This document shows positions 2,549-51,824 of a stretch of 64,000 bases of DNA, one piece after another. The notes below the pieces were generated by a model. That model worked only from the letters and a program-made list of their open reading frames with translations, searched no databases and had not been told where the DNA came from. This DNA is from an uncultured Bacteroidales bacterium. GTDB taxonomy: Bacteria; Bacteroidota; Bacteroidia; Bacteroidales; Paludibacteraceae. The DNA is taken from the NCBI GenBank assembly GCA_902782665.1, contig CACZOA010000011.1, positions 20,882 to 84,881 of the forward strand, given 5' to 3'. The translations under genes and the position numbers were made by a program. Numbering within the stretch: the stretch's first letter is position 1; each line of letters starts with the position of its first letter.

Positions 2549-2611
2549 AACGAGGAGAATGATGGTTTCTAGACGTAAATAGCAAAAACAAACACTAAAA
2601 TTTTTACACAT

Positions 2612-3061: not shown

Positions 3062-3066
3062 GACGT

Positions 3067-34080: not shown

Positions 34081-35268
34081 TTATTCGTTTGTATTAAGCT
34101 GATACTCGTTTGTACCGTGCAATTTTACATTGAATGTCATGATCTCACCCTGTCTGTCGACGGTGACTTTCACCTCATCGCCTGGGCTGAATCGCGTCAA
34201 TCTGTCTTGGATCTCAGCCACTGATTTCACTTTAGCGTTGTCGACGGCAATGATGACATCTCCGTTCTGCATTCCAGCATCTTTTGCTCCTCCATTTTGT
34301 CCGACTTCCACAACAAAGACTCCATCCAGACGGTTGACATAGTTGGCTTTAGCAAACTCGTTTGAGATGTCTGTTATCACAATTCCAAGCAACGCTCTCT
34401 GTACAGATCCAAACTGTTTCAAGTCTGACACAATCTTTGTCATTATCGACACCGGAATCGCAAACGCATATCCTGCGAATGAGCCTGTCTGTGAGGCAAT
34501 GGCGGAATTTATACCGACCAATTCTCCATTCAAGTTCACAAGCGCTCCTCCACTGTTTCCTGGATTCACTGCGGCATCTGTCTGAATGAATGATTCTATC
34601 TTCATGTCTCCAGACAAAATATTGATATTACGTCCTTTGGCACTCACAATTCCAGCAGTCACTGTTGATGTGAGGTTAAACGGATTACCCACCGCCAACA
34701 CCCACTCTCCTACTTTCAGATTGTCGGAATTGCCAATTTCAATTGGAGAAAGATCCTCTGCTTCTATTTTAAGCAAGGCCAAATCTGTTGATGGATCCAA
34801 ACCTATGATTTGTGCTTCAAACTCTCGTTTATCATTAAGAGTGACAGTCACACGGTCGGCTCCCTGCACTACGTGGTTGTTCGTCACTATGTAGCCGAGA
34901 TTGTCAAGTATCACTCCCGAACCAGAGCCAACCGGTCTTGGATTTGTGTTTTGTGGCTGGCGACGTGGCTGTCCGAAGAATGAACCGAACAAATCCTCCA
35001 GAGTCACGACATTGGACTGTCTGCCTTTGGAATATGTGATGATATGGACAACTGAATTAAGCGATTTCTCTGCAGCGACAGTGAAATCAACTCCCGTCGA
35101 GACATATTTTGCTGAAGAACTTGAAGAATTAACCGCAGTAGACTCTCTCAACAAAGCATTTGTATCGTTATCGGAAGAAAGCTTTGTATGCTCCTTGCAT
35201 GACAGAAGCAATGATGAAAAAATGGCAATCGAACATGCCGTCAAAACACTCCTTTTCATACCCTTCAA
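34081..35268 (-). CDS. Lipoprotein HtrA/DegP-family serine protease
   Basis: A 395-residue trypsin-like protease for envelope protein quality control. The signal peptide ends in a lipobox (LLSC, Cys24), so it is a lipid-anchored periplasmic or outer-membrane enzyme, unlike soluble DegP. The catalytic triad is His132 (TNNHVVQG), Asp162 (STDLALLK) and Ser239 (GNSGGAL). A single PDZ domain (about 285-385, ALLGIVITDIS...GMQNGDVIIAVDN) follows; many Bacteroidota homologues have two. ATG 35259 is an alternative start. A -7 element lies just upstream and the gene appears monocistronic. Confidence 0.94.
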   Translation of the reverse strand: MKGMKRSVLTACSIAIFSSLLLSCKEHTKLSSDNDTNALLRESTAVNSSSSSAKYVSTGVDFTVAAEKSLNSVVHIITYSKGRQSNVVTLEDLFGSFFGQPRRQPQNTNPRPVGSGSGVILDNLGYIVTNNHVVQGADRVTVTLNDKREFEAQIIGLDPSTDLALLKIEAEDLSPIEIGNSDNLKVGEWVLAVGNPFNLTSTVTAGIVSAKGRNINILSGDMKIESFIQTDAAVNPGNSGGALVNLNGELVGINSAIASQTGSFAGYAFAIPVSIMTKIVSDLKQFGSVQRALLGIVITDISNEFAKANYVNRLDGVFVVEVGQNGGAKDAGMQNGDVIIAVDNAKVKSVAEIQDRLTRFSPGDEVKVTVDRQGEIMTFNVKLHGTNEYQLNTNE

Positions 35269-35595: not shown

Positions 35596-37365
35596 TTACG
35601 CAATCACAATTCTTCTCACAAAATCACTCTTTTTGAAAGACGGGATTGTTCCAATCACAAATTTATCCGCCTGCATATCGCATACATAATAGATATTGTC
35701 GTTGTACGAGAAGACATCATTACGTATCGCTCCACACAAATCTGGACAAACATTCTCTTTTTCTGCCACTTCCAACGCCACTCGTCCGTCTCGCGACTGA
35801 AGTATATTGACTTTGTAATCCATTGTTGCATAAATTGTTGCAGCAAGCATCGCACGATCCATGGCTGTCGCTTTTTTGCTGTATAGTATCTCTTCCGCAG
35901 AACGGAGTCTGCCAGATGTCAAACTGTTCTCCACTCTTTCAAATGACTCTCTGTCTTGAACAAAATCCAGTATCATCTGCATCCTCTGCACACTCGACAA
36001 TCCTCGTCCGAGAGTTATATCGTCCACAAACCAACAGATCTTTTTTATATGCAATGAATCTTTCTCTTCCTCGACGAAATATTTTGCCACATCAGCAGGA
36101 TCCCCGTCGGAATTCAACAGTTCTGAATTATCATAACCAGCTGTCAATCTCAACATCTTCTCTTTGTCAAACTTCAGGCGGAGCACGCATTTGTTGTTTG
36201 CATTCAACCCTGAAATTGTCCAATCATAACTGTTGATCGCAAACAGATTGGTATTCGGATTCGGCTCGTCAGCACCGTCGTCTACTCTATTATCATCAAT
36301 CTCATTCTGCTTTAGCATCGGAATCAATGGATCGTCTACTTTCCACAAATTATAATTGTATCTGCCATAAGTCTGAACGGTCAGCAAAATGCTAAAGAAC
36401 TCCAGATATTTGTAGTAAATTATAGAAAGAAAGATGCCTACTATCGAAATCACTTCAAAAATTCTTTGGGAAGTTCTCATTCCTGTGCATCTGTTGAGCA
36501 AACGTAGAAATTGTGTGAATTTTGTATTTTTATATGTCGACTCAACATGTATTTCATACAAAATCCACCACATTAATGAGAAAACAAGTGGACTAACGAC
36601 CATAATAAATGGGAAAAGTAAATCCTGATATGGGAAAATCAACACAACAGGAATATAGATGGCTGTAAAGAGCAACAATGCAAGATATACAGTCTCTTTC
36701 TTTTGTGGTTTTTTATGAGTAGCGTGCGAGCCATCTGCCACTGTTTTGTCAAGACGCTTATGTATATCGTCCTGAATAGCAAGGTATCCACACATCAGTT
36801 TACGCATCGGCAGAATCTGGTCAACTTCTTTTTTTAGCCTTCCAAACTCTCTGATTTTATAGAATTTTCTATCAGTCTTAATTTCAGACGCGTCTTCCGA
36901 GTCTTCGCCATCACTTTTTATTAGAGCTTCCTTCTTTACCTGTTTCTCTATAACAGCTTTATAATCATGTCTGGAAAAGAATGCCAAGAACCAATTCTTT
37001 ATCTCCTCAAACGATAGTTTGCCAGCACTCTCATCAACACTTTTCAATCCTACCTGACATCCTTTAAACACCTCGTCGTCTGCCACCCACGATTCTATTG
37101 GTTCAAAGTCTACAATCACATCATCCTCAAACTCTTTTCTGATGTGTATTTCGGCCTTATTATTTTTGATATAAATATGGCCAATCGGATTCACTGTTTC
37201 AGGGAAGAACGAATCATAAATGGCATAGCAATCCTTCTCGCACTGTATTCGACACTTGTCGACCTGAGTTCGAGGCCAAAATTTATACCATATAAAGCAG
37301 CCCAACGCATATAGTAGCGTCGGGATCAGGATTCCACCCAATATCATCAATATTAGATCACTCAT
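35596..37365 (-). CDS. Multi-pass membrane protein of the vWA/tubulin-like operon
   Basis: A 589-residue protein with no recognised family. One helix at the N-terminus (about 4-28, ILMILGGILIPTLLYALG), then a soluble alpha/beta region, a helical hairpin near 225-275 (VYLALLLFTAIYIPVVL and PFIMVVSPLVFSLMWWIL) and another helix near 305-330. A long C-terminal cytoplasmic domain follows (about 340-589) with 'FVDDITLGRGLSSVQRMQMILDFVQ' and 'AMDRAMLAATIYATMDYKVNILQSRDGRVALEV'. The latter resembles a transglutaminase-like or scaffold segment, which is a guess. It overlaps the preceding gene by 4 nt (ATGA), so it is translationally coupled. It is the last gene of the operon. Confidence 0.78.
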   Translation of the reverse strand: MSDLILMILGGILIPTLLYALGCFIWYKFWPRTQVDKCRIQCEKDCYAIYDSFFPETVNPIGHIYIKNNKAEIHIRKEFEDDVIVDFEPIESWVADDEVFKGCQVGLKSVDESAGKLSFEEIKNWFLAFFSRHDYKAVIEKQVKKEALIKSDGEDSEDASEIKTDRKFYKIREFGRLKKEVDQILPMRKLMCGYLAIQDDIHKRLDKTVADGSHATHKKPQKKETVYLALLLFTAIYIPVVLIFPYQDLLFPFIMVVSPLVFSLMWWILYEIHVESTYKNTKFTQFLRLLNRCTGMRTSQRIFEVISIVGIFLSIIYYKYLEFFSILLTVQTYGRYNYNLWKVDDPLIPMLKQNEIDDNRVDDGADEPNPNTNLFAINSYDWTISGLNANNKCVLRLKFDKEKMLRLTAGYDNSELLNSDGDPADVAKYFVEEEKDSLHIKKICWFVDDITLGRGLSSVQRMQMILDFVQDRESFERVENSLTSGRLRSAEEILYSKKATAMDRAMLAATIYATMDYKVNILQSRDGRVALEVAEKENVCPDLCGAIRNDVFSYNDNIYYVCDMQADKFVIGTIPSFKKSDFVRRIVIA

Positions 37366-39884
37366 GCCTTGTATTCATAATTAATTCCTCCAAGTGCATC
37401 CCATGGAGTAAACTCTTCCTCTGTTGAATCTTCTATATATTGGCTAAAAATTTCATCTCTATAAGATGACGGTGCTTCTTGAATCAGATCATCTTCCTCC
37501 TCATAATTACATTTCAATCTCCAATCTATCTGATCCTCAATCTTTTGCCATGTAACAACAAACAGATATGGATCTGTATTATGCTGTTTGCAAACTAATG
37601 GATCAAGCTCATATCTGCGTGCTTCATCCATTTCAAACAATTCATGTCTGGCTTTTGCTGCAAATTCTTTATCTGCGGCACGAAGCAACATTGGCTCCTC
37701 GTCATTCGTAGTGATGAACATGCCATTGATTTCGGCCATTTTGTAAAGCGGACGGAATGTGATGCAGTCGCCATAATCACGATGGAAATCAGCGAAGTCT
37801 TTTGGTACATTCGGCAGATTATCCGTGAAGCATTTCTCTATGCGACGGTGCAACATCTCGTAATCATCTGTCGCTTTTTCTGCTTCATAATCAGCGTCTT
37901 CCTTGCCAAACAAACGGTTTCCTGGAAGTGTCACAATCTCTGATATGAACTTGTCAGCAAACAATTTCTGCAGCATATCCTTGTAATCCTCTTTCGTAAG
38001 TTCTGATAGTTTACGCGTCTTACGATTCAGATAAAGCATCGGTTCAAGCAATTCTGGATTTTTTACCAATGTCTCACCTTCAAACTTTGCCTGGGTGAGA
38101 TGTTGGTTGAACATTGTCTCCTTTACATCAACTGTCCACCAATCTGGTTTTTCCATTGACAATTCACGTTTCGCCTTATCAATAAGCTTCATGACATGTC
38201 GTTTCTGCTGAGAACAGAAATCGTAAAGATCATTGTAAAGATAATCAACCTGGTCCTCATAGTCCTGACGCATATTCCTATTTACCTCAAGCAATGTGTT
38301 CGCAAGCAACATCATCTTTAATTTTTTGATATACTTACAGTTACGAACATATTTACCTATAGAGTAAAACCAAGGCGTCACAGCACCATAGATCATATAA
38401 AAAATATTAATCGCATCATATTCTACATATTTTCGATATTCCGGAAGATAATCTTTAATGAACTGAATAAGCAGTATGATAGTTATCACTACCGTTATAC
38501 TTGTCATTAGTGTGCGCGTGAGCAATCCAAGCAATGGTGGCTCAGAATCAATCACTGCACTTATTTCCTTCACTATATCTGTATTTCTCTGTTCTGAAGA
38601 TCTACCCTCGTCATATTTAAAATCCAGATAAAAATCCTGGATGAACTTTGGACATTTGACAATATCTTCCTTATCCTCTTTTGCTCGCTCCTTATACTTG
38701 CAGATCTCTTCCTGAATAGCGTCATAATACGCAAGTGTCTGAGGCAGAGTGACATCCGGATTGTATGAACTTCCAATAAAATATGAGGCAGACTCACGGA
38801 TTGTGCTTGCGGCACGCTCATAGATTGCTTCACGATTCTTCACCATCGTGTCGACGGATTTGTATCTCAACGAATACGAAATCTGCTGATGTCGTTTCAC
38901 CAGTGTCGACGGAAGATGTTTCAGATATGTCTGGAAATAGTCACGAAGCAGATTGTATCTGTAGAAATCATAGATCGGATGTGGATCAGGATTCTCATAA
39001 AGTTTGTTGAAGACGTCGCACAAATCGCAACCTGACTTTAGTTTTCCACTCACTTTCGCAACATTACGCGCTATCTCATCATCTTCTGCTATGTCATTAT
39101 TAATGAAATCATAATCGAGATCTTTGTCACGCAACATCGCTTTCAATAAATTGCGTCGGATTTCCCAAGCATACATATTATGTTGGGCATTGCCATCATA
39201 GAAGACAGATGCCGCGCCAAGTGAATAGTAGCCATTCTGTGTGGCGAGATCGTTGCCAAACACTGTGGCATCATTATCTCCACAGAAGTATACCGACAAC
39301 ATATATTGGAACAACAAATCTGTCAACTCATTGGTTTGCAATTGACAATAGAATCTGTTCGCAACGTACTGATTCTCCTGATACAACACAACTCTGGCAA
39401 ACTTTTTCTTTGCCATCATAACATTGAGCTGTTCAAGAAACTTCACACATCTGCGTTTGTGCTGCAAGTCGTGAGATTGGTTGATTGACTCCTTCACACA
39501 CAACATTCCCGTCTGCTCTAATCCACGATTTAGATGAGTGGAGAGAATGTCTCCGAATTTTTCATCCAGAATTGTCGGCAACAGATGGAAAATCTGCTGT
39601 GTCAGTTTTTCTTCCGCATTACCGAGAATACAGACCTGAAGATTGATGAACGGAAATCCCTTTTCTAGGAAATAGTTCACCATACGCTGCCCTTCCCTTA
39701 CCGTATAATCAATTGTCGCATCAAAGGAATCTTTGTCTTCTATTCCTCCGACGCATCGACGATTGGCAAGGTTGGTCACACGCCAACAGTGACGCTGCTC
39801 GCGAGAAAGTTTGCGGAGATTTTCCGCCAACCTCTTGCGAACATCTATATCCTCATTAAGATTTATTACCCAAACAGGTGTCAT
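37362..39884 (-). CDS. Large two-helix membrane protein of the vWA/tubulin-like operon
   Basis: An 840-residue protein with no recognised family. A long N-terminal domain (1-450) has Rossmann-like strands (VWVINLNEDID, FINLQVCILGNA, ARVVLYQENQ). Two membrane helices follow at about 455-475 (RTLMTSITVVITIILLIQFI) and 488-508. A C-terminal domain (510-840) has coiled-coil-like helices and ends in an acidic tail. The start codon shares one base with the stop of the tubulin-like gene, and its own end overlaps the next gene by 4 nt. Tight coupling implies fixed stoichiometry with the tubulin-like protein. It may be its membrane anchor, which is inference. Confidence 0.78.
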   Translation of the reverse strand: MTPVWVINLNEDIDVRKRLAENLRKLSREQRHCWRVTNLANRRCVGGIEDKDSFDATIDYTVREGQRMVNYFLEKGFPFINLQVCILGNAEEKLTQQIFHLLPTILDEKFGDILSTHLNRGLEQTGMLCVKESINQSHDLQHKRRCVKFLEQLNVMMAKKKFARVVLYQENQYVANRFYCQLQTNELTDLLFQYMLSVYFCGDNDATVFGNDLATQNGYYSLGAASVFYDGNAQHNMYAWEIRRNLLKAMLRDKDLDYDFINNDIAEDDEIARNVAKVSGKLKSGCDLCDVFNKLYENPDPHPIYDFYRYNLLRDYFQTYLKHLPSTLVKRHQQISYSLRYKSVDTMVKNREAIYERAASTIRESASYFIGSSYNPDVTLPQTLAYYDAIQEEICKYKERAKEDKEDIVKCPKFIQDFYLDFKYDEGRSSEQRNTDIVKEISAVIDSEPPLLGLLTRTLMTSITVVITIILLIQFIKDYLPEYRKYVEYDAINIFYMIYGAVTPWFYSIGKYVRNCKYIKKLKMMLLANTLLEVNRNMRQDYEDQVDYLYNDLYDFCSQQKRHVMKLIDKAKRELSMEKPDWWTVDVKETMFNQHLTQAKFEGETLVKNPELLEPMLYLNRKTRKLSELTKEDYKDMLQKLFADKFISEIVTLPGNRLFGKEDADYEAEKATDDYEMLHRRIEKCFTDNLPNVPKDFADFHRDYGDCITFRPLYKMAEINGMFITTNDEEPMLLRAADKEFAAKARHELFEMDEARRYELDPLVCKQHNTDPYLFVVTWQKIEDQIDWRLKCNYEEEDDLIQEAPSSYRDEIFSQYIEDSTEEEFTPWDALGGINYEYKA

Positions 39885-42800
39885 CAGTCTTTACAAGTGA
39901 AATCCTCGAATGTCTTGAATTTGTCGTTAAGCACACGCAACATCTCTTTCAATGTCTCCATTTCCTGGAAACTTTGTGCAGCTCGTGCATCTCTATATTT
40001 GGCATCAAGAAGTGTCTCAACTTTCTGTTTCGCCTGATTGAAGCCTTGAACCAATATATTGTTATCCAATGCATTGACTGCCTGCATATAACGTTCAATG
40101 AAGTTGTCGTAGTGGTCGCTCAAATAACGTTTTCCAAACTCATTGCTCAACTCTGTATAGAAGAGATTGCAGTAGCATGGAGTGTATTTACGTCCCTTCT
40201 CAGCAATGTTGATCTGGATCTTCTTGTCTCCTTGGATTTCAAGCGACAGGTCTGTAGCCCAAACTACCGAATTGCTTTTCACCTCGAATGGAGTCTGTCC
40301 ATAAACACCCTCCAAATATGATTTGTCTGGAATCACTATGAATTTCTTCATTGTAGACTCGTCATAATTACCAAGAATCATCAATTTAAGCATTGCGATA
40401 GTCGCGTTTGACGCGCCAATTGGCAACAGACTCTTGATTTCATCCACGTCTCCACCTGTTCTTGCAAATGCCTGATGGAAATGGTAGTACTCTTTCTTAT
40501 CACATTTATCGTATTCCGACTTGATATTATGGTAAGTGCGGTAGTACTCGAAATTCATTCCTGTTTTGGCAGTTATGATGTAGAACAACTCAGAGTTGCT
40601 ATGGCCAATAAACTTCTGTGAGCTTGACTCCTGGAAATTAAACACCTTCTTTGCATTGTCTCTGTTGTCTGCCACACAGAAATCTCTCTGCTCAAGCACA
40701 CCGTCCATCTGGCCGATATTGTAAGAGAAGAACAATGTTGGAGAAAGTCGTTTAGTCACCTCATCAAGCTGATCTGTAGTAAGTTCATTGATCAAATCAG
40801 GCAATTTCTTGTCGTACCATCCATTCACAGCTGAATTTCTGCGGCACATCAATCCAAATGCCTTGTATGCGAAGTTCATAATATCGTCGATAGTCTTCTC
40901 CGCGCTACGTTCTGTGTTGATAAAGAACTTAGATTTTAGAGTTGCCTCTCCATTCTCATCCAAAGACTCCACAATATAATTAGCGCTCTTCAAATCAGCC
41001 TCGATCTGGTTCTTCATTGTATGGAAGAAATCTGTCAAAGCCTCTGTTGTAGGCACACGTACATTGCCAGAAACAGCCTCTTTGTCTGGAGTAATCAATT
41101 TCTCATAATACTCAGCAAACAAGTTGTCTCTCTTCCAACCGTCGCCATTAGCGAACTCGCATATATTAGGCAAGTAGACGGAAGTGATATCCTCTTTCTT
41201 TGATCTGAACGTCTCCGCAAGATTCTTGAAGCTCTGTTTTGGTCCTTTCTCGCTCAACAATGCGGTTTTTGCAGCCTCCGACAATGCTCTCAAATGACGT
41301 GCCACGACATCCAAGAAGCCATTTTCACCATAGCAGAACGACTTTATAAGTTCAAATATCTTGTTTTCAATCAGAATCTCACGTTTAAGTTCCAAGCCTC
41401 TCTTGTAGACGCTGTAAACATTGGCGATATCATCAGCATTATTGTTGATATGAACCATCTCAAGGAACGTTCTCTCCTCAGCCTTCTCTCTTGCTGAATC
41501 AAGATCACTCTTCTCTTTGCTGCTTGAAGATTTCTCATATTTAGTGTTCTGACGGTTCAATTCGCTCTTTGTCTGCAAATGCGACGCGAAATCAGCGATG
41601 ATTGAGTCTTGAATCATATCTTTGTCCTTGTCGTAGTGGTTGAACAAAGATGTGCACTCTTCATCCAGTCTCTCTACAGCAGCGATAGTGTTCTGAAGAC
41701 CGATAGCTGTAACCATTTCCTCAACACACGACCAAATCTTTTGTTCAAGTGCCTCTTGAGTGGATTTCTGCAATGCGTCATTATCCTGGTCGTCAATCAC
41801 ATCAGCAAGACTCTGCGTCGTCTTCTTGACCGCTGAATTCATCTTGCCGGCATCAAACTTGTCAACTCGTTTATCGCCCTCGATTACTCCGGCACGAGAT
41901 TCGGAGAAATTAGTCTTGATTGCCTGAGTCATCTGACTGCGGATTTCGCTGAAATAGTTGTTATCTCCGTCAGGATTAAGCACATATGCATTGATAGTGT
42001 CTTTGATAAGATCCTCGACAACCTTATTCAAATCTACTTTATTCGCCTTGTCGTTGACCGACTTTCCCAGGATACAATGTTCAAGCAAATCAGCCTGAAT
42101 ACGGCATTTCATATAGTCGTCAAAATCAGCACTTGGCTTCTTCAACGCTACATATCCCATCGGAAGTAAGAAATTCTTCTCTGTGCCAGGAGCCACTTCT
42201 CCATCACGGGTGTTATCCATGAACGACTCGAAACCTCTTGCTCCAGGACCATCGTGAAGATAACAAAGAAGTTCAGCTGTATTTGAATACATACTGTCAA
42301 GATTACCGAGATTGTTTCCAGCTTCTGTCTGGAAATCAACTGGAATCAACGCTTCAAATGGTCTGTATGGTAGCGATGTATTGATACGTGAATAACGGTC
42401 GTTCAGAGCCAGACGGTGGAACAATGTGGCTGTCTCCGGTTTCTTTGACCATGCCATCTCAGCCTCCAACTCAGACATCACAGCAAAAGCATTGCGTGGA
42501 TACTTCTCGTTGCGTCCATTGTGGTCGATATACCACTGTGGCATATACATTGTAAGGATAACCTTTGGATCGGCCTCGTCGATAGTCGCCTTGTGCATCA
42601 TGTTCACAAAATACAACACATCATTGATGATACCTGAACCAGTACCGCCCAAACTTGAACAAACGACCCAGTAGCATACTGTGTTGTTGTCGGCAGCGTT
42701 ATCCTCTATCTTATTCAAATCCTGGATATTCTTCACCAGTTTCTCACAGAACTGATCGGCAAGACGGGCGAACGCGGTACGTGATTTCAAACGGAATGCT

Positions 42801-43192
42801 CCAGCACCGAATTTTAAGGCACGATTATCCATGTGCATAGCCACTTCGTCATCACAAGCTTCAATTATTCGCTTGTTGATTTGAATCTCTTGAGCCGCTT
42901 TCGCTTTCTGATATATGACGTATGGATTTTGTGTTCCAAGGTTTATAAGCTCGTTCGTGGAAAGCATTTTCACACGTCCGTTCTCATATTTGGTACGGTA
43001 TTTCTCATTAAGGTTGTCAATGTCTCCGGCGTCAGTGTCAATGAACATGAAACGGTAGTTGTCATTCATCACGTCAACCTTGCTACGGTTGCCACTGACA
43101 TTCTGAAGGCTTTCATACACCTTCATCTTGATAAGAGCCACAGTCTTCGATCCTGCGCCTCCACAGCCGATAAAAATATGTTTTCTTGCCAT
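39884..43192 (-). CDS. Tubulin/FtsZ-like protein (Tubulin_2 / FtsZ-like family)
   Basis: A 1102-residue cytoplasmic protein. Its N-terminus fits the nucleotide-binding fold of the FtsZ-tubulin superfamily: a glycine-rich first loop (FIGCGGAGSKTV, about 7-19), an acidic FIDTDAGDIDN strand (about 50-60), and the tubulin signature loop GGTGSG at 182-187 after 'WVVCSSL'. The rest is much longer than FtsZ (about 380) and largely helical, with an acidic middle. Comparative genomics (Makarova and Koonin) has predicted that a widespread FtsZ-like family works with vWA proteins in membrane remodelling. This operon has a vWA gene upstream and two membrane proteins downstream. GTP binding and polymerisation are inferred, not shown. 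Confidence 0.85.
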   Translation of the reverse strand: MARKHIFIGCGGAGSKTVALIKMKVYESLQNVSGNRSKVDVMNDNYRFMFIDTDAGDIDNLNEKYRTKYENGRVKMLSTNELINLGTQNPYVIYQKAKAAQEIQINKRIIEACDDEVAMHMDNRALKFGAGAFRLKSRTAFARLADQFCEKLVKNIQDLNKIEDNAADNNTVCYWVVCSSLGGTGSGIINDVLYFVNMMHKATIDEADPKVILTMYMPQWYIDHNGRNEKYPRNAFAVMSELEAEMAWSKKPETATLFHRLALNDRYSRINTSLPYRPFEALIPVDFQTEAGNNLGNLDSMYSNTAELLCYLHDGPGARGFESFMDNTRDGEVAPGTEKNFLLPMGYVALKKPSADFDDYMKCRIQADLLEHCILGKSVNDKANKVDLNKVVEDLIKDTINAYVLNPDGDNNYFSEIRSQMTQAIKTNFSESRAGVIEGDKRVDKFDAGKMNSAVKKTTQSLADVIDDQDNDALQKSTQEALEQKIWSCVEEMVTAIGLQNTIAAVERLDEECTSLFNHYDKDKDMIQDSIIADFASHLQTKSELNRQNTKYEKSSSSKEKSDLDSAREKAEERTFLEMVHINNNADDIANVYSVYKRGLELKREILIENKIFELIKSFCYGENGFLDVVARHLRALSEAAKTALLSEKGPKQSFKNLAETFRSKKEDITSVYLPNICEFANGDGWKRDNLFAEYYEKLITPDKEAVSGNVRVPTTEALTDFFHTMKNQIEADLKSANYIVESLDENGEATLKSKFFINTERSAEKTIDDIMNFAYKAFGLMCRRNSAVNGWYDKKLPDLINELTTDQLDEVTKRLSPTLFFSYNIGQMDGVLEQRDFCVADNRDNAKKVFNFQESSSQKFIGHSNSELFYIITAKTGMNFEYYRTYHNIKSEYDKCDKKEYYHFHQAFARTGGDVDEIKSLLPIGASNATIAMLKLMILGNYDESTMKKFIVIPDKSYLEGVYGQTPFEVKSNSVVWATDLSLEIQGDKKIQINIAEKGRKYTPCYCNLFYTELSNEFGKRYLSDHYDNFIERYMQAVNALDNNILVQGFNQAKQKVETLLDAKYRDARAAQSFQEMETLKEMLRVLNDKFKTFEDFTCKD

Positions 43193-43258
43193 ATATTATG
43201 TGTATTTTTTTCTATTTTAAATCAATTTAGCATTTAGAATTCAACATTTCTAATTTTA

Positions 43259-44914
43259 TCACACGTTTCCATCAATATCAAGATTGATGTCTTTGCCTCC
43301 ACGTGGATCTCTGATCTGCAATGGTATCGTAGTGGAATATTTTATAGTGGATGAACCGCCTGACGTGTAATCATCACCTCCATTCAGACTATATTCCTGT
43401 GAATTGGTGACAGTCACCTCATATTTTGGCTCGACACTCCAATGCAGAATCGGAATGAACAGTTTTGAAATATATTTTTTCTGTTTGAAGACGACATTGC
43501 ACTCTGCCTTTTCGACGTCAATTGTAAGATTGCTCACATGTCCGTTGATCTCTTCTGTACAGATTTTTTTCGTTCCTTGAGTAAGCGTGTATTCGCCACG
43601 AAGTTTATATTTATCACTACAATTACGCTTTATGCAGAGGATCACACTCAATATGTAGATAATAATAAGTATCCACATGATGCAGTACCATTTGAATGCC
43701 ATCGGATGACAGAATACATTTTCCTGTGGCAACTCGATGCTTGCCTCAATGGTTTGGTTATCCTTACCCATCAGTTTGATCAACTCCGCCTCATACGGCA
43801 CTTTGAAAGAGATGTGTGCCTTCAACCTACCATTAGGCTTCTCAAAATGCGGATTAAAAAAAGCTTCGTCATCACCTCTGATCTGAGCTATATTCACGAA
43901 TGACTCTTCACTTCCGTCGCTACTCATCAAATGAGGCAATTTCAATTCTGGATGATCTTCACACTCATCTTCATCAGCCATCACAAGATGCATTCTGCGG
44001 TCGGTGATGGAAAGAGAGTCGAGTGTAATCGCATCAAACACATCGTTTGAAACCCACGACATAGTCATCGACATGTGTCCGTCAATATCCACGTCGACGG
44101 AATTGATTGTGGCTCCAGCCTCCTGAGTCATTTTACCAATCAAAAACTGTTTGAATTTCTCAAGAGCGATATCATTCTTCATCTGGTCAAACCAACTCTG
44201 CAAAGCCTGTTCGTTTGATACAGGGATTGTCTGAGGCTTAAACATTGAGAATGCGTTCATTATATCATCAGTACTCGTCTCTCCACTACCCATCTTAGGC
44301 AATTCCAAAGCAACAAGTTTGATATTCTTTCCAGCCAACTCCTTCTCTATTCTCGAACGGTAATCGTCAAGATGAAGTTTTTTTGAATGTCCAGCGACGG
44401 GATCATTAAGGAAATCAGTGATAAGGAACACAAACTTAAGGTTATTTCTGCCTGTGCGTGTCAAATCCTTTTCCAGATATTCAAGCATATTAAGTAAATC
44501 CGTATAGGCTGTAAATTTCTTTCGTTCTTCCGCCGACGCTGGTTTATCATACACACGGTCGGCATAATTGACAAGACTCTGTCTCATTGCTGAGTTTACG
44601 ATACCGAAACCGTTTGGCTCATTCTTTGCCTCACCTCCAAACTTGATGACAGATACATAATCACCGTCTTGAACAGAACGGAAAAAACTTTTCAAAGCAG
44701 GAACAACTATTTTCTCATATTTATTCATGGTTCCAGACACATCAATAGCGAAGACGTAATCTGCGTGTTCATTTTTAAGTTCTTCGCCGAATTTTTTCAT
44801 AAGTTCAGGAAAATCATTTGCCAACGCATCGAAAGCACGGTTGTCTTGTGCATAAGACGTTGCAAATCCAAGCATCATCAACAAAAAAGAGATGTATATC
44901 TTAATCAATTTCAT
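43259..44914 (-). CDS. Membrane-anchored von Willebrand A-domain protein
   Basis: A 551-residue protein. Signal peptide 1-22 (ending SYAQ), then a vWA domain (about 50-240) with an intact metal-binding MIDAS DVSGT (Asp58, Ser60, Thr62) in VFAIDVSGTMNKY. A beta-rich region follows, then one membrane helix near 410-428 (WILIIIYILSVILC), a basic stop-transfer stretch, and a cytoplasmic beta-rich tail of about 120 residues. The vWA part should sit in the periplasm and the tail in the cytoplasm, where it could meet the tubulin-like protein encoded 66 nt downstream. It is the first gene of the operon; no clear promoter was found in the 550-nt gap ahead. Confidence 0.88.
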   Translation of the reverse strand: MKLIKIYISFLLMMLGFATSYAQDNRAFDALANDFPELMKKFGEELKNEHADYVFAIDVSGTMNKYEKIVVPALKSFFRSVQDGDYVSVIKFGGEAKNEPNGFGIVNSAMRQSLVNYADRVYDKPASAEERKKFTAYTDLLNMLEYLEKDLTRTGRNNLKFVFLITDFLNDPVAGHSKKLHLDDYRSRIEKELAGKNIKLVALELPKMGSGETSTDDIMNAFSMFKPQTIPVSNEQALQSWFDQMKNDIALEKFKQFLIGKMTQEAGATINSVDVDIDGHMSMTMSWVSNDVFDAITLDSLSITDRRMHLVMADEDECEDHPELKLPHLMSSDGSEESFVNIAQIRGDDEAFFNPHFEKPNGRLKAHISFKVPYEAELIKLMGKDNQTIEASIELPQENVFCHPMAFKWYCIMWILIIIYILSVILCIKRNCSDKYKLRGEYTLTQGTKKICTEEINGHVSNLTIDVEKAECNVVFKQKKYISKLFIPILHWSVEPKYEVTVTNSQEYSLNGGDDYTSGGSSTIKYSTTIPLQIRDPRGGKDINLDIDGNV

Positions 44915-46121: not shown

Positions 46122-47312
46122 TTATTCCGAACCTGTTTGTATATCTTTTTTCTTCTCTTCATCTGCCAATCTGAAATAGATTGGCAAAGAAAACTTACTA
46201 CGAATAGGATCTCCCTTTCTCATTGCAGGCTGCCATTTCGGCATCATACTCACAACACGGACAGCCTCTTCATCCAAAACTGGATATACACTTCGTGCGA
46301 CTTCAACATCTGTGATAGAGCCGTCTTTTTCAACTGTAAATCTAACAATAACTCTACCTTGAATACTTGAGTCTTGTGCGGCTTTAGGATAAACCAAATT
46401 AGATTTTAGAAAATCAAGTAAAGCTCTATCTCCGCCTGGAAATTCTGCTCGATGTTCACCAACAATCATACCCATAATCATATCATCATCGTCGTCATCA
46501 TCTGATTCTGATTTTGAACCCATTTCTTTTTTACTAGATGTAGAATCTACGTCACATCTGACCAACCCAAGTGTTGTAACAAGACTATCAGATTGATAAT
46601 TTGGTTCGGGATAAGGAATATTGAGGAACATAATAGTAACATGAAATTTTGAACGGACCTGTCTGCCATTACTCATTGCAGGAGTCCACTTCTCCATCTT
46701 CTGTACTACACGAATAGCTTCTTTATCAAAATCTGGATGTACAGGGTCTTTTACTCTCACATTTGAAATTGATCCATCTTCATCCACATTAAAAATCACA
46801 ACGACAGGAATCTCGTTAGGAGTCTCTGGATTTAGCTTCGTAATTGGATGGTTTAGATTGTTTATCAAAAAATCTACAATGTCATAAGGACATTCAGCAT
46901 GCACTATCTCATCAAACAGATCTTCTCCCTCAGCATAAACCGTATCTTCGACTGGAACAAAAGGTTTTTCTGGAAGATTTTCCACCTCTATTCTACGACG
47001 ATCAACAATTTCTCCTTCCATTTCATCTCCTACTTCCAATTTAGGATTATAACTATCTGTAGTGCTTATCGAATTGCACGCAGCCATCGTCATCATCGTC
47101 GCCAAACCAACAATCTTCACCGCTTTGCCTGCCATCTTGCGTATATTCAGCTGATTCTCAATATATCGCATCTCCGACTCACACGCAGGACACGTGCCCA
47201 TACAGTCGCCTTTGTGTGTACAAACCACTGGTTCGTATGGAATTTCATTTGCATCCGCTATCTGTTTGCGGATGGACTTTAATGTCTCACATGTCTTTTT
47301 TCCTTTGTACAT
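46122..47312 (-). CDS. TonB-family protein with N-terminal Cys-cluster module and two TonB C-terminal domains
   Basis: A 396-residue protein. The N-terminal module (1-58) has Cys8 and C31-x5-C37-x3-C41-x2-C44 (CTHKGDCMGTCPAC), probably binding zinc or an iron-sulfur cluster. A hydrophobic stretch follows (about 60-78, AGKAVKIVGLATMMTMAAC) with a lipobox-like end. Two TonB C-terminal-like domains come next (about 130-230 and 305-396), each with the PG-like ALLDFLKSNLVYP, 'VIVRFTVEKDGSITDVEVAR' and 'LDEEAVRVVSMMPKWQPA' pattern. TonB domains carry inner-membrane energy to outer-membrane transporters. It is the last of six tandem paralogues on this strand. Confidence 0.88.
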   Translation of the reverse strand: MYKGKKTCETLKSIRKQIADANEIPYEPVVCTHKGDCMGTCPACESEMRYIENQLNIRKMAGKAVKIVGLATMMTMAACNSISTTDSYNPKLEVGDEMEGEIVDRRRIEVENLPEKPFVPVEDTVYAEGEDLFDEIVHAECPYDIVDFLINNLNHPITKLNPETPNEIPVVVIFNVDEDGSISNVRVKDPVHPDFDKEAIRVVQKMEKWTPAMSNGRQVRSKFHVTIMFLNIPYPEPNYQSDSLVTTLGLVRCDVDSTSSKKEMGSKSESDDDDDDDMIMGMIVGEHRAEFPGGDRALLDFLKSNLVYPKAAQDSSIQGRVIVRFTVEKDGSITDVEVARSVYPVLDEEAVRVVSMMPKWQPAMRKGDPIRSKFSLPIYFRLADEEKKKDIQTGSE

Positions 47313-47353
47313 AAGCTATCTATAATTAGGTTTGATCCTACAAAAATAAAAGA

Positions 47354-48472
47354 TTACTGGTTTAACCGAAAATCTATAGGTAAAATAATAGAAGAATTAA
47401 TCCTATGTTCTGCTTGCTTTCCAGGGGCCCAACATGGCATTCTTTTAATGACACGCACTGCCTCCTTATCCAAAAGCGGATGTACTGATTTTATGACTTC
47501 GATATGGTTTATCATACCATCTTTTTCGACTACAAATCGCACGAAAACCTTGCCACTGATACCTTCTTCCTGTGCTGCCATAGGATAAACTATATTCTTT
47601 TTAAGAAATTCCATCATGGCTTTCTGCCCACCAGGGAATTCAGCTTTAACCTCATTGGGATAAAAGATAGGATCTTCATCAATATCACCTTCTATTCCTT
47701 CACCAAAAGTATCAATTTCAAAGAGTCCTGTCACATCTGTAATTATTGGACATTTTGAAGGCTTTTTGGTATTTGATTTTTCTTCAGTTAATGCCAGTGT
47801 GTTAAGAGACAATGTAATCATGGAACGAGCTTCTCCACCATTGTAAGTGGCAGGTTTCCACTTTGGCATCATCTTGATGACTCGAATCACCTCCTTATCA
47901 AACGCAGGATTTACAGATTTCCTGATTTTAACATTAGATGTGGAACCGTCTCTTGCGATAAAAAATTCAACAACGGTCAAATCTAAACCATTGTCTTTCT
48001 TTGTCGTATCTAAATTGTATAAATTTGTTTCAAAATATTCCATCATAGCGTCTATACCTCCCGGATATTCGGCATAGGTTTCATCATCATATAGATCTTC
48101 GCCCTCCGAATAGACTATCTGCTCTATAGGACTAAAGGGCATAGGTGGCTCTGGGTATGGACACTGATTATCATAAGGAACAATAGTATCTCCCGATAAA
48201 TAATCTGTTTCATTCTCTACCCTACTTGTAGAATTGCACGCAGCCATCGTCATCACCGTTGCCAAACCAACAATCTTCACCGCTTTACCTGCCATTTTGC
48301 GTATATTCAGCTGATTCTCAATATATCGCATCTCCGACTCACACGCAGGACATGTGCCCATACAATCGCCTTTATGTGTACACACTCTTGGTTCGTATGG
48401 AATATCATTGGCATCCGCTATCTGTTTGCGGATGGATTTTAATGTCTCACACGTCTTTTTTCCTTTGTACAT
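47354..48472 (-). CDS. TonB-family protein with N-terminal Cys-cluster module and two TonB C-terminal domains
   Basis: A 372-residue paralogue of the neighbour at 46122-47312 with the same layout: Cys module (Cys8, 31, 37, 41, 44), hydrophobic segment GLATVMTMAAC, and two TonB C-terminal-like domains (about 120-215 and 275-372). The first 180 nt are almost identical to those of the flanking copies, while the rest diverges. Its first 34 nt overlap the 3' end of the upstream gene, out of frame. The two-domain form could arise from tandem duplication within the gene. Confidence 0.87.
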   Translation of the reverse strand: MYKGKKTCETLKSIRKQIADANDIPYEPRVCTHKGDCMGTCPACESEMRYIENQLNIRKMAGKAVKIVGLATVMTMAACNSTSRVENETDYLSGDTIVPYDNQCPYPEPPMPFSPIEQIVYSEGEDLYDDETYAEYPGGIDAMMEYFETNLYNLDTTKKDNGLDLTVVEFFIARDGSTSNVKIRKSVNPAFDKEVIRVIKMMPKWKPATYNGGEARSMITLSLNTLALTEEKSNTKKPSKCPIITDVTGLFEIDTFGEGIEGDIDEDPIFYPNEVKAEFPGGQKAMMEFLKKNIVYPMAAQEEGISGKVFVRFVVEKDGMINHIEVIKSVHPLLDKEAVRVIKRMPCWAPGKQAEHRINSSIILPIDFRLNQ

Positions 48473-49113
48473 TTTTTTACTGGTTTACGTGAATACATTC
48501 GGTTAAATCTTCCTTTTACAATAATAATATCACCCATTAAAGATTCTTCGTCATCTAATAAAGTCACATTCAATACATTTGACGTTTTATTAGTGGCTTT
48601 TATACTTTTATTCATATATCCAATGGAAGAAAACTCAAGAACTGCATGCTCTGGCACCTCTATTTCGTAGTAACCGTCCATATCTGTGTTCGTACCAATT
48701 GCAGTTCCTTCAATCACTACATTGACGAATGGCAGAGGTGTATTCTTCTCATCTTTGACAACACCTTTTATCGTAATATATTTAGAAGAATCATTTTCTA
48801 AGATTGATTTATTAGACGCCACTGATTCTTCCTGCTTAAAATCATTAGAAATCTCAGTTTCATTGCTAGCCGCGACACTTGAAGCCATCGTCATCACCGT
48901 TGTCAAGCCCACAATCTTCACAGCTTTGCCAGCCATCTTGCGTATATTCAGTTGATTCTCAATATAACGCATCTCCGACTCGCACGCAGGACATGTACCC
49001 ATACAATCGCCTTTATGTGTACACACTCTTGGCTCGTATGGAATTTCATTTGCATCCGCAATCTGTTTACGGATGGATTTTAATGTCTCACATGTCTTTT
49101 TTCCTTTGTACAT
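48439..49113 (-). CDS. Cys-cluster module fused to a carboxypeptidase-regulatory-like domain
   Basis: A 224-residue member of the array in which the TonB domain is replaced. The N-terminal Cys module (same five Cys) and hydrophobic segment are kept, but the lipobox-like Cys is lost (MTMASSVAAS). A CarboxypepD_reg-like domain follows (about 115-200): 'IKGVVKDEKNTPLPFVNVVIEGT', 'GTNTDMDGYYEIEVPE', 'LEFSSIGYMNKSI'. This is the domain that starts SusC-type outer-membrane transporters, after which the protein ends in a basic tail (KKCTKEKRRVRH). The 3' end overlaps the next gene by 34 nt. Domain swapping inside the array is the simplest reading. Confidence 0.85.
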   Translation of the reverse strand: MYKGKKTCETLKSIRKQIADANEIPYEPRVCTHKGDCMGTCPACESEMRYIENQLNIRKMAGKAVKIVGLTTVMTMASSVAASNETEISNDFKQEESVASNKSILENDSSKYITIKGVVKDEKNTPLPFVNVVIEGTAIGTNTDMDGYYEIEVPEHAVLEFSSIGYMNKSIKATNKTSNVLNVTLLDDEESLMGDIIIVKGRFNRMYSRKPVKKCTKEKRRVRH

Positions 49114-49119
49114 ATTAAT

Positions 49120-49584
49120 TTATTTTTCAGATAAATCAAATAAAATGGGTAATCTGAACCTAGACCTATAAGGTCTGCCATCATTATTCAGAGCTGGCTT
49201 AAATTTATTCATCTTTTGAATAATAAAGATTGCCTCTTCATCAAATATAGGATCTATACCCTGTACGACTTCTATGTATGATATAGAGCCATCTCTTTCC
49301 ACAATAAATTCAACAACTACTGTCCCATGTTTACCTGTAATATGTTCTTTTTCAGTACAAACTAAATCAGATGCCAGTCTGTCTATCTTTATCTCCTTGC
49401 CGGCCAGCTTACGTATATTCAGTTGATTTTCAATATAACGCATCTCCGACTCGCACGCAGGACATGTGCCCATACAGTCGCCTTGATGTTTGCATACTAT
49501 TGGTTCGTACGGGATATCATTTACATCTGCAATTCTTTTACGAATAGACTTTAATGTTTCACATTTTATTTTTCCCTTGTACAT
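49120..49584 (-). CDS. Short Cys-cluster/TonB C-terminal-domain protein lacking the membrane segment
   Basis: A 154-residue paralogue. The Cys module is intact (CKHQGDCMGTCPAC), but the hydrophobic stretch has become polar (AGKEIKIDRLASDLVCTEKE) and the proline-rich spacer is gone. The Cys module therefore leads almost directly into one TonB C-terminal-like domain (about 85-154, GTVVVEFIVERDGSISYIEVV). Without a membrane segment this copy is probably soluble. It may be a deleted, decaying copy or a cytoplasmic variant. It lies 6 nt upstream of the carboxypeptidase-regulatory fusion. Confidence 0.8.
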   Translation of the reverse strand: MYKGKIKCETLKSIRKRIADVNDIPYEPIVCKHQGDCMGTCPACESEMRYIENQLNIRKLAGKEIKIDRLASDLVCTEKEHITGKHGTVVVEFIVERDGSISYIEVVQGIDPIFDEEAIFIIQKMNKFKPALNNDGRPYRSRFRLPILFDLSEK

Positions 49585-49685
49585 TAAATCTTTGTATTAA
49601 GGTTAGTTTATACAAAAATAGGAGAAATGATGAATTTAGAAAAATCACATAAACAGTTTTCATTAAGCATTTGCCTATAGCTCAT

Positions 49686-50450
49686 TTATATTTTGAACAA
49701 GATAGGCAAATATAATCTGCTTCTGACAATTTTTCCCTTATTCGTCGCAGGAATCCACTTTGGCATCTTGTTCACAACATTGATAGCCGCTTCATCCAAT
49801 GAGCGATGAACACTTCGAACGATATCAACATTGGTAATAGAGCCGTCTTTCTCAACAACAAAGCCTACAATCACTCGTCCCTGAACACCCCCATCGCTAG
49901 GATAAACTAAATTATTCTTAATAAATGTCATAAGCGAGTCTTTCCCTTGAGGATATTGAGCTTTTTGATCTACTATTGAAAAAATCGCCGTATCTTCTCG
50001 TGCTTCATCTATTGCATCCCAGGAATCCATTTCCTCTTTAGACGGGTGATACCCAGGACATACAACAAATGGTGCTGGCGGCGTAGGCGGTGGTGTATCT
50101 ATAGGTTCACTTGCTGCTTCAAATGAAGAATCTGCGGATTCTGGGATCAATTCCACTGTGTCGACGGGAATGTTTTCAGCAGATGGTTGTGGCTGAGGAT
50201 GTTGAACATCATTGCACGATGCCAATGTCATCACCGTCGCCAGCCCAACAATCTTCACAGCTTTGCCAGCCATTTTACGTATGTTCAGCTGATCTTCTAT
50301 ATAACGCATCTCCGACTCACATGTAGGGCATGTGCCAAGACAATCTTCCTCAAGTGCACATTTAATAGGAGCATATGGGATGTCGTTGGCATCAGCGATC
50401 TGTTTGCGGATGGATTTTAATGTATCACATATTGGTTTTCCATGGTTCAT
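49686..50450 (-). CDS. TonB-family protein with variant Cys-cluster module, one TonB C-terminal domain
   Basis: A 254-residue, more diverged paralogue. The module reads CALEEDCLGTCPTC, keeping all Cys but losing the His at position 33. The hydrophobic segment ends TLASC (lipobox-like). A Pro/Glu/Ser-rich spacer (about 80-130, with EPIDTPPPTPPAP) of the periplasm-spanning TonB type precedes one TonB C-terminal domain (about 165-254). Of the six, this one looks most like a classic TonB protein. Confidence 0.87.
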   Translation of the reverse strand: MNHGKPICDTLKSIRKQIADANDIPYAPIKCALEEDCLGTCPTCESEMRYIEDQLNIRKMAGKAVKIVGLATVMTLASCNDVQHPQPQPSAENIPVDTVELIPESADSSFEAASEPIDTPPPTPPAPFVVCPGYHPSKEEMDSWDAIDEAREDTAIFSIVDQKAQYPQGKDSLMTFIKNNLVYPSDGGVQGRVIVGFVVEKDGSITNVDIVRSVHRSLDEAAINVVNKMPKWIPATNKGKIVRSRLYLPILFKI

Positions 50451-50493
50451 AAGATTCTTTTATTTCGTATTGATTATCAACTATTTTTCTATA

Positions 50494-51672
50494 TCACTCA
50501 TCTAACTTGAAAAGGACAGGCAATTTAAAGTTTGACCTGACAGCTGTATTCCTAATTGTTCCAGGCTTCCATTTCGGCATCTTTTTAACGACTCGAAAGG
50601 CCTCTTCTCTTAATAATTTATCATCACAAGATGAATGTATATTTGACAAAGATCCGTCCTTTTCTACAACAAACTCCACAATGACACTATAATACTTGCC
50701 TGTATCCAAAGGCATGTCATCAGCATAGATAGTATTACAACGTCTTTCCTTCAAATCACTGCAAACCCAAAATCTACCAATATCATCAAAATCAAACTGA
50801 TTATCATATAAATAATAAGAGTCCAGCTCTTCTAAATCAGATTTTGAGTAGACTAAATTTTCTTTTAAGAAATCAAACAAGGCCTTTTTTCCACCTGGAA
50901 ATTCCGCCTGCTTCTCTACTCTTACAAAACTTAAATCTCGATCGTCTGGAATATTGATATTGCAATGATCAAACGTTTTTCGAGGGACAAAAAATCCTAA
51001 TGATTCATACCTGAAAAATATTGGCACATGGAACTTTGAACGTACAGGTTTGCCATTACACATTGCAGGTTTCCACTTCTCCATTCCCTTCACCACACGA
51101 ACAGCTTCTTCGTCTAAACATGGATATAGAGGTTTTTTAACCGCAACATTTGAAATTGATCCATCTTTCTCAACAATAAAAGAAATCGTGGCCGTACCTT
51201 CAATTCCTTCAACCATTGCGGCTTCTTTATAATGTACATTAAATATAAAATAAAATGCAAGACTATCTGGAGCTACAGCATGTTCCAATGTATCAAAAAG
51301 AACACTGTAATCAGCACATATTTCATCCTCTATAGGAATAAACGGAGTTTCTCCTTCTCTGTCTCCGATATAGTCATAAACTAATTCTTTTTGATTTAAT
51401 TCATCAGGAAGTATTGAAACACTATCTGTAATATTACACGCAGACATAGACATCGCCGTCGCCAAACCAACAATCTTTACTGCCTTGCCAGCCATTTTAC
51501 GTATGTTCAGCTGATCCTCAATATAACGCATCTCCGACTCGCACGCAGGACATGTACCCATACAGTCGCCTTGGTGCGTACAAACCACTGGTTCGTATGG
51601 AATTTCATTAGCGTCTGCTATCCGCTTACGAATTGCTTTTAATGTCTCGCATTTATGTTTTCCTTGGTACAT
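50494..51672 (-). CDS. TonB-family protein with N-terminal Cys-cluster module and two TonB C-terminal-like domains
   Basis: A 392-residue paralogue and the first gene of the array on the minus strand. Cys module as in the others (CTHQGDCMGTCPAC), hydrophobic segment GLATAMSMSAC, then two TonB C-terminal-like domains (about 110-210 and 255-392). The second carries a long insertion with 'SDLEELDSYYLYDNQFDFDD' before its 'VIVEFVVEKDGSLSN' strand. ATG 51672 is chosen because it lines up with the MY(K/Q)GK start of the other copies; the frame is open 6 nt further to a TTG. Confidence 0.86.
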   Translation of the reverse strand: MYQGKHKCETLKAIRKRIADANEIPYEPVVCTHQGDCMGTCPACESEMRYIEDQLNIRKMAGKAVKIVGLATAMSMSACNITDSVSILPDELNQKELVYDYIGDREGETPFIPIEDEICADYSVLFDTLEHAVAPDSLAFYFIFNVHYKEAAMVEGIEGTATISFIVEKDGSISNVAVKKPLYPCLDEEAVRVVKGMEKWKPAMCNGKPVRSKFHVPIFFRYESLGFFVPRKTFDHCNINIPDDRDLSFVRVEKQAEFPGGKKALFDFLKENLVYSKSDLEELDSYYLYDNQFDFDDIGRFWVCSDLKERRCNTIYADDMPLDTGKYYSVIVEFVVEKDGSLSNIHSSCDDKLLREEAFRVVKKMPKWKPGTIRNTAVRSNFKLPVLFKLDE

Positions 51673-51824
51673 AGGCAAATTTTATTATGTTCGACGGAAT
51701 GTCTTGCCATCAAATTAATATTGCAAAAATAGGATTATTGATGAATTATGAAAACTTTTAACTGACTATATAGCAAAACAAATATAGATAGATTGACATA
51801 TAAAACAGAAGATTTAAATTTTTA

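Follow-up and report, generated by a model that had tools for sequence, protein, structure and literature searches.

Organization and conservation of the V-A-B-C operon

The window (the whole 64,000-nt stretch of DNA that was analysed, from a gut Bacteroidota genome) contains a four-gene operon, V-A-B-C, formed by minus-strand ORFs from 44914 to 35596 (Table 1). The same four ORFs had been described in an earlier note on this DNA, which had them joined by overlaps of 1 nt and 4 nt. This holds for A/B (1 nt) and B/C (4 nt); because a gap of 66 nt separates V from A, only two of the three junctions are overlaps. HtrA (34081-35268) was rejected as a candidate fifth operon gene, because it is 327 nt distant and a different ORF follows C in locus L021.

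Table 1. Positions of the operon genes and their features in the window
Feature	Position	Strand	Evidence
V, exported vWA protein, 551 aa	43259..44914	-	VWA_2 match, MIDAS conservation, TM by hydropathy
V MIDAS motif D-V-S-G-T, residues 58-62	44729..44743	-	Sequence; conservation across V rows
A, FtsZl1/Tubulin_2, 1102 aa; tubulin-like region 6-368 and long extension	39884..43192	-	PF13809; FtsZ profile
A T4 loop GGTGSG, residues 182-187	42632..42649	-	G182 and G183 conserved
B, 840 aa; cytosolic N-terminal half, TM hairpin, cytosolic C-terminal part	37362..39884	-	Inferred topology
B region paralogous to A post-T4 half (residues about 80-450), diverged and without GTP-loop glycines (putative pseudo-tubulin)	38535..39647	-	hhalign and decoys
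B TM hairpin	38361..38513	-	TM prediction, window and L038/L040
B residues 391-540, tract common to window and L021, against L020 and L017	38265..38714	-	84 to 3 informative sites
C, 589 aa; multi-TM, degenerate transglutaminase-like C-terminal domain	35596..37365	-	Family assignment via relatives; TM prediction
C transglutaminase-like region (residues about 484-582), catalytic Cys and His absent	35620..35916	-	Sequence comparison
C tract common to window and L021, residues 1-360 with the first loop and TMs	36286..37365	-	178 to 16 informative sites

Conserved linkage of the four genes in relatives, set as a check in the earlier note, was found: the order V-A-B-C was present in 32/32 genomes carrying the type of A seen here, with no departure as far as contigs reach, the count being limited by contig ends. 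The A tree and the B tree had 28 of 34 splits in common. As compared across these genomes, V, A, B and C are co-inherited genes in fixed order. An exported zincin-like protein (E) is added to the operon in most relatives. Among 390 genomes from the phylum, B was present in one, the window's own. No GTPase, kinase or OmpA partner was detected among the four operon genes and the four flanking proteins scanned, in agreement with the earlier statement that GTPase and OmpA partners are absent.

The exported vWA protein and the tubulin-like protein

The sequence of V is that of an exported vWA protein bearing a MIDAS and one TM. Its predicted architecture consists of a signal peptide, a vWA domain at about 54-168 and a single TM at 410-428 (hydropathy), and the predicted topology places the C-terminal tail in the cytosol. 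The VWA_2 match in Pfam (5e-5, 24.3 bits) was just below the cut-off of 27. MIDAS residues D58, S60, T62, T138 and D167 (S/T allowed) were conserved in all 36 V rows with letters there (38 V rows in total). Glyco_hydro_77 and Rho_GDI matches in V were regarded as chance.

A is an FtsZl1/Tubulin_2 protein with intact T1 and T4 glycines. Its PF13809 (Tubulin_2) match was 7e-23 (81.9 bits; cut-off 27), and the GTP-loop motif GG(G)TG(S/T)G was found as GGTGSG, with G182 and G183 invariant in 60/60 A rows. The same genome encodes FtsZ proper at a different place. The profile of this FtsZ matched the A family (P 1.4e-7) with the alignment in the T1-T4 half, and no alignment to FtsZ was obtained for the post-T4 half. 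A D-x-Q segment of A was tested as the tubulin T6 loop; it gave a visual hint only and was unsupported. The sequence of A alone had no match among PDB sequences, and the two matches of its profile (E 1.4 and 1.9) were both chance. The AlphaFold model of A 1-410, built from six rows only (window and five related loci), had a mean pLDDT of 34.8, and a Foldseek search with this low-confidence model found nothing at E 0.001 or below. The first description of V (a vWA protein that is exported and anchored and has an intact MIDAS) and of A (a tubulin/FtsZ-like protein of 1102 residues with GGTGSG) is borne out.

The membrane-bound proteins B and C

B and C had been described as two large membrane proteins of no known family. 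Neither B nor the window's own C had a significant Pfam or NCBIfam match. Contrary to the first description, B is predicted to be no large membrane protein but mostly cytosolic, with a TM hairpin: one TM (458-476) was clear, and the second (about 490-508) was sub-threshold in the window and predicted in L038 and L040. Comparison of B and A profiles by hhalign (38 B rows, 60 A rows) revealed a match with a score of 62.0 (P 6.4e-6), colinear across 367 columns. Decoys scored lower: 60 shuffles reached at most 32.4, and reversed profiles gave 17-19. The globular part of B alone scored 47.8 against A (P 6e-5), vs 27.0 for the part after it; when post-T4 parts alone were compared, the score was 37.5, vs at most 21.1 in 40 shuffles. 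B did not match the T1-T4 half of A (P 0.32), nor FtsZ in profile comparison, and GG[TS]G was absent from all 38 B rows. These profile comparisons indicate that the cytosolic half of B and the A post-T4 half are diverged paralogues, B being without the GTP-loop glycines and having a TM hairpin. Because B matches neither the T1-T4 half of A nor FtsZ, and the post-T4 half of A is unalignable to FtsZ, the part common to B and A need not be a tubulin fold. B is probably a membrane-anchored pseudo-tubulin. No match was found in A-C, B-C or V-B profile comparisons, nor between the B profile and PDB sequences. The AlphaFold model of B 1-455, from the same six rows only, had a mean pLDDT of 36.2.

Proteins encoded at the place of B in other loci were also compared. 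The L047 protein matched the same part of A as B did (hmmsearch 0.0018; hhalign P 6e-5 or 0.0019 by direction) and B weakly (0.029); the L048 protein matched B (P 1.4e-5) and gave no match to A. Weak matches to the same part of A were obtained for the L084-type protein (five rows; P 0.003; 38.3 vs at most 31.1 in 40 shuffles) and the L087 protein (P 0.006); neither matched its own neighbouring A protein, and the L084-type had no match to FtsZ. The L044 and L092 proteins gave no match. Only L047 and L048 were counted as support for kinship of B and A. It is conceivable that B is no relative of tubulin and that the match arises from common helical or coiled-coil composition, in which case B and C would simply be membrane scaffolds for an FtsZl1 protein acting alone. 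The hhalign probabilities (44-86% depending on direction), the absence of a match with profiles of seven rows each and the lack of an FtsZ match are consistent with this explanation. However, the higher score of the globular part, the low scores of the shuffles, the colinear alignment and the independent L047 match to the same part of A make it unlikely.

Comparison with its relatives places C, a multi-TM protein, in a transglutaminase-like family; in the window's genus its Cys and His have been lost. Thus, its description as a membrane protein stands, and that as having no known family does not. Family membership rests on relatives only: of eight relatives scanned, PF04473 was above the cut-off in the C of three (L038, L068 and L076) and below it in three. 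GDC...H is present in C of relatives, and the catalytic Cys is conserved in 12 of 32 C copies; Cys and His are both missing in the window, L016, L017, L018, L020 and L021. Against PDB sequences, the C profile gave seven matches (E 0.1 to 6.8), which in every case fell within or close to the TM part and were rejected, and L047 C gave three, the best being 4fgo at 0.015. PHROGs matches were weak, the best being 0.0035 for C.

The mosaic alleles of B and C (Table 1), which amount to one or two events among six genomes, show that the predicted TM hairpin of B and TM half of C were co-inherited; two natural haplotypes occur, one of the window/L021 type and one of the L016/L020 type. This natural co-inheritance of the membrane parts points to a B-C contact surface.

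Proposed mechanism and comparison with known systems

A vWA/FtsZl1 system was predicted by Makarova and Koonin in 2010 (PMC2875224). V-A-B-C has the linked vWA gene with MIDAS and the PF13809 protein of that system, to which the earlier note had likened it, and is a real Bacteroidota subtype of it and no new kind. Our literature searches found no report of a tested FtsZl1 function. The specific reading we favour, at somewhat less than even odds, is that A/B assembly in this subtype is coupled across the membrane via V and acts on the envelope. A would bind GTP and polymerise in the cytosol. B, as a pseudo-tubulin in the inner membrane, would serve as a docking or capping subunit of A and pack against C within the membrane. 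In the periplasm, the vWA domain of V would bind a ligand or an envelope protein through its metal site, and V would pass its state across its TM; in this way, we propose, A/B assembly would be linked to an event beyond the membrane. At its site of assembly the machine would act on the envelope or remodel it, and a function in envelope or membrane remodelling is what we infer. Protein processing may be a further activity in relatives whose transglutaminase-like and zincin-like partners are intact; in the window's genus, transglutaminase-like activity would be gone and C kept as structure.

A 2010 reviewer asked how an FtsZ-like protein in the cytosol comes into contact with partners in the periplasm, and raised transmembrane transport or signalling as an alternative (PMC2875224). 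In such a device the vWA domain would read a periplasmic ligand and A/B would relay or gate, with no membrane remodelling. Consistent with this, V is membrane-spanning and both B and C are bound to the membrane; however, no transporter or solute-binding partner was found among the four operon genes and four flanking proteins scanned, and the long tubulin-like protein points to assembly. We consider this alternative rather improbable, if less so than the others.

A conflict (defence) device, one option of the earlier note, would have vWA or A/B sense an invader and trigger an effector, as proposed for GAP1-N2 systems, which centre on a GTPase and include tubulins and vWA proteins (Burroughs et al. 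2020, PMC7159879). Those systems have comparable components (tubulin, vWA, TM proteins), and the operon's distribution is patchy: within the family, 45 of 358 genomes have any A-like match. However, its place is fixed among genus relatives, and pairwise dN/dS within the genus was low for all four genes (V 0.02-0.06, A 0.01-0.04, B 0.08-0.21, C 0.09-0.24; dS saturated in several pairs). The candidate effector enzyme, C, is dead in the window's genus, and the operon showed neither the GAP1 GTPase nor the FNIII partner of the described systems. PADLOC gave one weak match among six proteins scanned (V, 0.0057, 13.6 bits over 48 residues). Nothing supports defence in particular, and we regard it as the least likely explanation.

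Generalizing the favoured reading, FtsZl1 systems may be two-subunit tubulin systems, a suggestion we hold just as tentatively. A cytosolic GTP-binding tubulin-like protein would be joined by an inner-membrane pseudo-tubulin linking the filament to the periplasmic vWA sensor, with the dead transglutaminase-like TM protein as its membrane partner. If true, the pseudo-tubulin is the missing link between cytosolic filament and periplasmic sensor, the point doubted by the reviewer (PMC2875224); a membrane-anchored A paralogue, adjacent and co-inherited, offers a testable answer to that objection. It would also mean a tubulin pair in which one partner lacks the GTP loop and has gained a membrane anchor. 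Pairing of an active and a modified subunit is reminiscent of alpha/beta-tubulin.

A resembles canonical FtsZ/tubulins in its T1-T4 half, which aligns with own-genome FtsZ, and differs in its unalignable post-T4 half and long extension. C is like transglutaminase-like proteins (PF04473, PF01841, LapG type) in the GDC...H and PF04473 matches of its relatives, and unlike them in being TM-anchored and tied to FtsZl1, with Cys/His lost in the window's genus. GAP1-N2 systems likewise have tubulin-domain proteins with C-terminal extensions beside vWA proteins, and their Firmicutes versions have two tubulin genes (PMC7159879). In contrast, V-A-B-C belongs to another phylum and has no GAP1 GTPase or FNIII protein, and its second tubulin-like protein is membrane-bound, with the GTP loop lost. 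FtsZl1 proteins are found across many bacterial phyla and also in archaea, and their operons hold lineage-specific TM proteins (families A1-A2, B1-B9) (PMC2875224); B and C may be among the B1-B9 families. A GTPase, kinase or OmpA partner is frequent, not universal, in the 2010 system, and V-A-B-C has none. The operon has in common with that system the long C-terminal FtsZl1 extension, the MIDAS vWA neighbour and lineage-specific TM partners, which here are resolved as B (FtsZl1 paralogue), C (transglutaminase-like) and, in relatives, E (zincin-like).

Conservation of the operon

The source genome of the window is a 3.33-Mb draft, 87.7% complete, in 114 contigs. Its closest named relatives are the MAGs Bacteroidales bacterium, Paludibacteraceae bacterium and Candidatus Scybalocola fimicaballi. 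The four ORFs described in the earlier note were all found: V (exported vWA protein), A (FtsZl1/Tubulin_2 protein), B (protein with a TM hairpin) and C (multi-TM protein). V and A are 66 nt apart; A and B overlap by 1 nt, and B and C by 4 nt.

The A profile matched 45 of 358 same-family genomes. The window's type of A, set by a score over 1,200 bits, was present in 32, all of which entered the type survey, with a second copy in genome G639 left out. The order V-A-B-C on a single strand was found in 30 of these, V being truncated by a contig end at two loci (L016 and L061); L016-L021 were assigned to genomes of the survey from position and the length of the contig. The other two are limited by contig ends: L070 has A-B-C, with C broken into two ORFs, and its contig stops before V; L019 has V-A, and its contig stops within A. 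The proposed linkage of the four genes was thus borne out in relatives. Six more genomes (L077-L082) had V-A-B and gave no match to C, and the remaining 7 of the 45 had other FtsZl1 types with different neighbours.

At the order level, 5 of 393 genomes matched the A profile, its own genome counted. Tubulin_2 was detected at the phylum level in 13 of 395 genomes at 0.001 (10 above the cut-off). B was present in seven of the nine genomes of the window's genus, and at the phylum level in 1 of 390, the window's own. FastTree phylogenies of A and B for 37 shared loci had 28 of 34 splits in common. In G007, classed in the window's genus, the operon (locus L040, on contig C17) has diverged to about 32% identity in A and falls with genus g27 in both trees, which may reflect transfer or misfiling.

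Other arrangements were observed. Five further FtsZl1 operons (L084, L085, L086, L089, L091) had a vWA-like gene upstream and, directly after the FtsZl1 gene, a 940-1230 aa TM protein weakly similar to post-T4 A. A gene for a zinc-ribbon-like protein comes after the FtsZl1 gene in L043 and L083; the one in L043 includes a MORN repeat (2.3e-7), and we read these proteins as a further partner type. The ORFs upstream of the operon in L078 are a possible hint of a defence context in one genome.

Coordinates of the window and of neighbouring or related features
Feature	Location	Strand	Observation
Window	contig C11, 20882-84881		
Gene row	window 46122-51678	minus	about six genes in a row with common start MYKGKKTCETLKSIRKQIADAN
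Scanned member of the row	window 46122-47312		two TonB_C stretches; other members similar in look
FtsZl1 neighbour	L043 12618-13262		zinc-ribbon-like protein
ORFs upstream of V-A-B	L078 1931-6679		three ORFs, starts IFISYSRKDFDK-like, TIR-like by eye
FtsZ pair	L053 (G000:C108) 2605-5326	minus	two different neighbouring FtsZ genes, 449 and 463 aa, GGGTGTG in both

Relationship of B to A

A had a Tubulin_2 match of 81.9 bits and was the sole Tubulin_2 protein detected in its genome; FtsZ proper is encoded away from the operon. G182 and G183 were kept in 60 of 60 rows. A two-FtsZ profile of the same genome matched the A family from T1 to T4 (P=1.4e-7; reverse direction, 8.7e-5). A partial FtsZ-type match on contig C14 is a third beside the FtsZ pair of L053.

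Pfam scans of B in the window and relatives revealed nothing above the cut-off. When iterated profiles built from 38 rows of B and 60 of A were compared by hhalign, A columns 165-560 aligned with B columns 86-474 (P=6.4e-6, probability 85%; reverse direction, P=2.4e-4, 44%). Trimmed profiles scored 62.0, compared with 17.3 for reversed A, 18.9 for reversed B, at most 19.3 in 30 column shuffles and at most 32.4 in 30 twelve-column block shuffles. The globular part alone scored 47.8 (35.5 in reverse) and the part following 27.0; the post-T4 parts alone scored 37.5, whereas none of 40 block shuffles exceeded 21.1. No match was found between B and the first 200 columns of A (P 0.32). Opposite GGTGSG of A stands a B stretch resembling LG-N/D-x-x-E, and GG[TS]G occurred in none of the 38 B rows. 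As judged by profile comparison, B was shown to be kin of the post-T4 half of A; we infer that it may be a pseudo-tubulin.

In the window's B, one TM (458-476) is clear and a second near 490-508 falls under threshold. Because both TMs are predicted in B of L038 and L040, and seven K/R follow the second in L040, the positive-inside rule would place both large parts of B on the cytosolic side.

Proteins C and E and their degenerate copies

Among eight relatives' C proteins scanned, the transglutaminase-like domain PF04473 was above the cut-off in three (L038, L068, L076), below it in three (L039, L047, L071) and absent in two (L040, L066); the window's C gave no PF04473 match. C of L047 matched the C profile (P=8.7e-39), and its best match among solved structures was 4fgo (E 0.015), a LapG structure. 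Motifs were counted by search expressions, which second repeats may have escaped. Twelve of 32 C proteins (L038, L040, L047, L065, L067-L071, L074-L076) had GDC in one repeat or more, and a downstream His was present in all nine whose repeat was viewed, the second repeats of L074-L076 lying outside that count. Cys was replaced by Ser with His retained in 11 (L039, L055-L064); L072 and L073 had Ser in the single repeat scored, and L066 had Tyr. In the window's C and those of five genus relatives, Cys and His are both absent. The window's C is evidently a transglutaminase-like protein that is degenerate and subject to purifying selection (dN/dS of C 0.09-0.24). TMs above threshold numbered four in the window's C and five in L020; judging from K/R counts, the first loop and the C-terminal domain are probably cytosolic.

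A fifth gene, E (about 350 aa, N-terminal signal or TM), was found at 22 of 31 loci with C, and was absent from the window, L016-L018, L020, L021, L060, L061 and L071. HExxH and a downstream glutamate were kept in 14 of the 22 and degenerate in eight, all of genus g21. Because Pfam matches among nine E proteins scanned were weak (DUF2268 in one at 0.0035, BSP in two at 0.0078 and Peptidase_MA_2 in one at 0.17), the putative label "zincin-like" is based mainly on the motif. Genus g21 (L068-L070, L072-L076) retains E though HExxH is degenerate (RELAYY and similar), apparently as a second retained dead enzyme of this operon. In the window's genus, E was present in one of nine genomes, G007, whose operon is the g27-grouped one. 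An E-related fragment lies upstream of V in L048, from another family.

Mosaic tracts and a possible membrane bridge

V and A of the window are near-identical to those of L020 (dN 0.005 and 0.001). Informative sites joined the window to the more distant L021, not L020, in B 391-540 (84 to 3) and C 1-360 (178 to 16). Elsewhere the window went with L020 (L021 against L020 sites: V, 4 to 74; A, 0 to 125; B 1-390, 10 to 54; B 541-840, 6 to 45; C 361-589, 5 to 50), and a third pattern accounted for 2 to 7 sites per part. Misassembly is an unlikely source of the mosaic, because L021 comes from an assembly of its own, both reading frames are uninterrupted, and the tracts are for the most part close to 90% identical to those of L021, with 67-81% where the C tract nears its end. 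Six genomes fell into two haplotypes (window and L021; L016, L017, L018 and L020), so that independent events were few, perhaps one or two. Since the membrane tracts of B and C share L021 history, with about 900 nt of other history between them, the simplest reading is that the TM hairpin of B must match, and would contact, the first loop and TMs of C.

Among the open-licence PMC papers listed for FtsZl1, Tubulin_2/PF13809, pseudo-tubulins and FtsZ-like proteins with vWA and transglutaminase, none was recognisable as a description of a B- or C-like partner; the supplement on the 2010 partner families lies outside this set. In the 2010 paper (PMC2875224), a reviewer asked how a cytosolic FtsZ-like protein would act with periplasmic partners, and also remarked that T6-H7 is missing. 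A test of the latter point on A was negative. As to the former, B and the TM of V would form a bridge between the cytosolic FtsZ-like protein and periplasmic partners, which would answer the reviewer's question.
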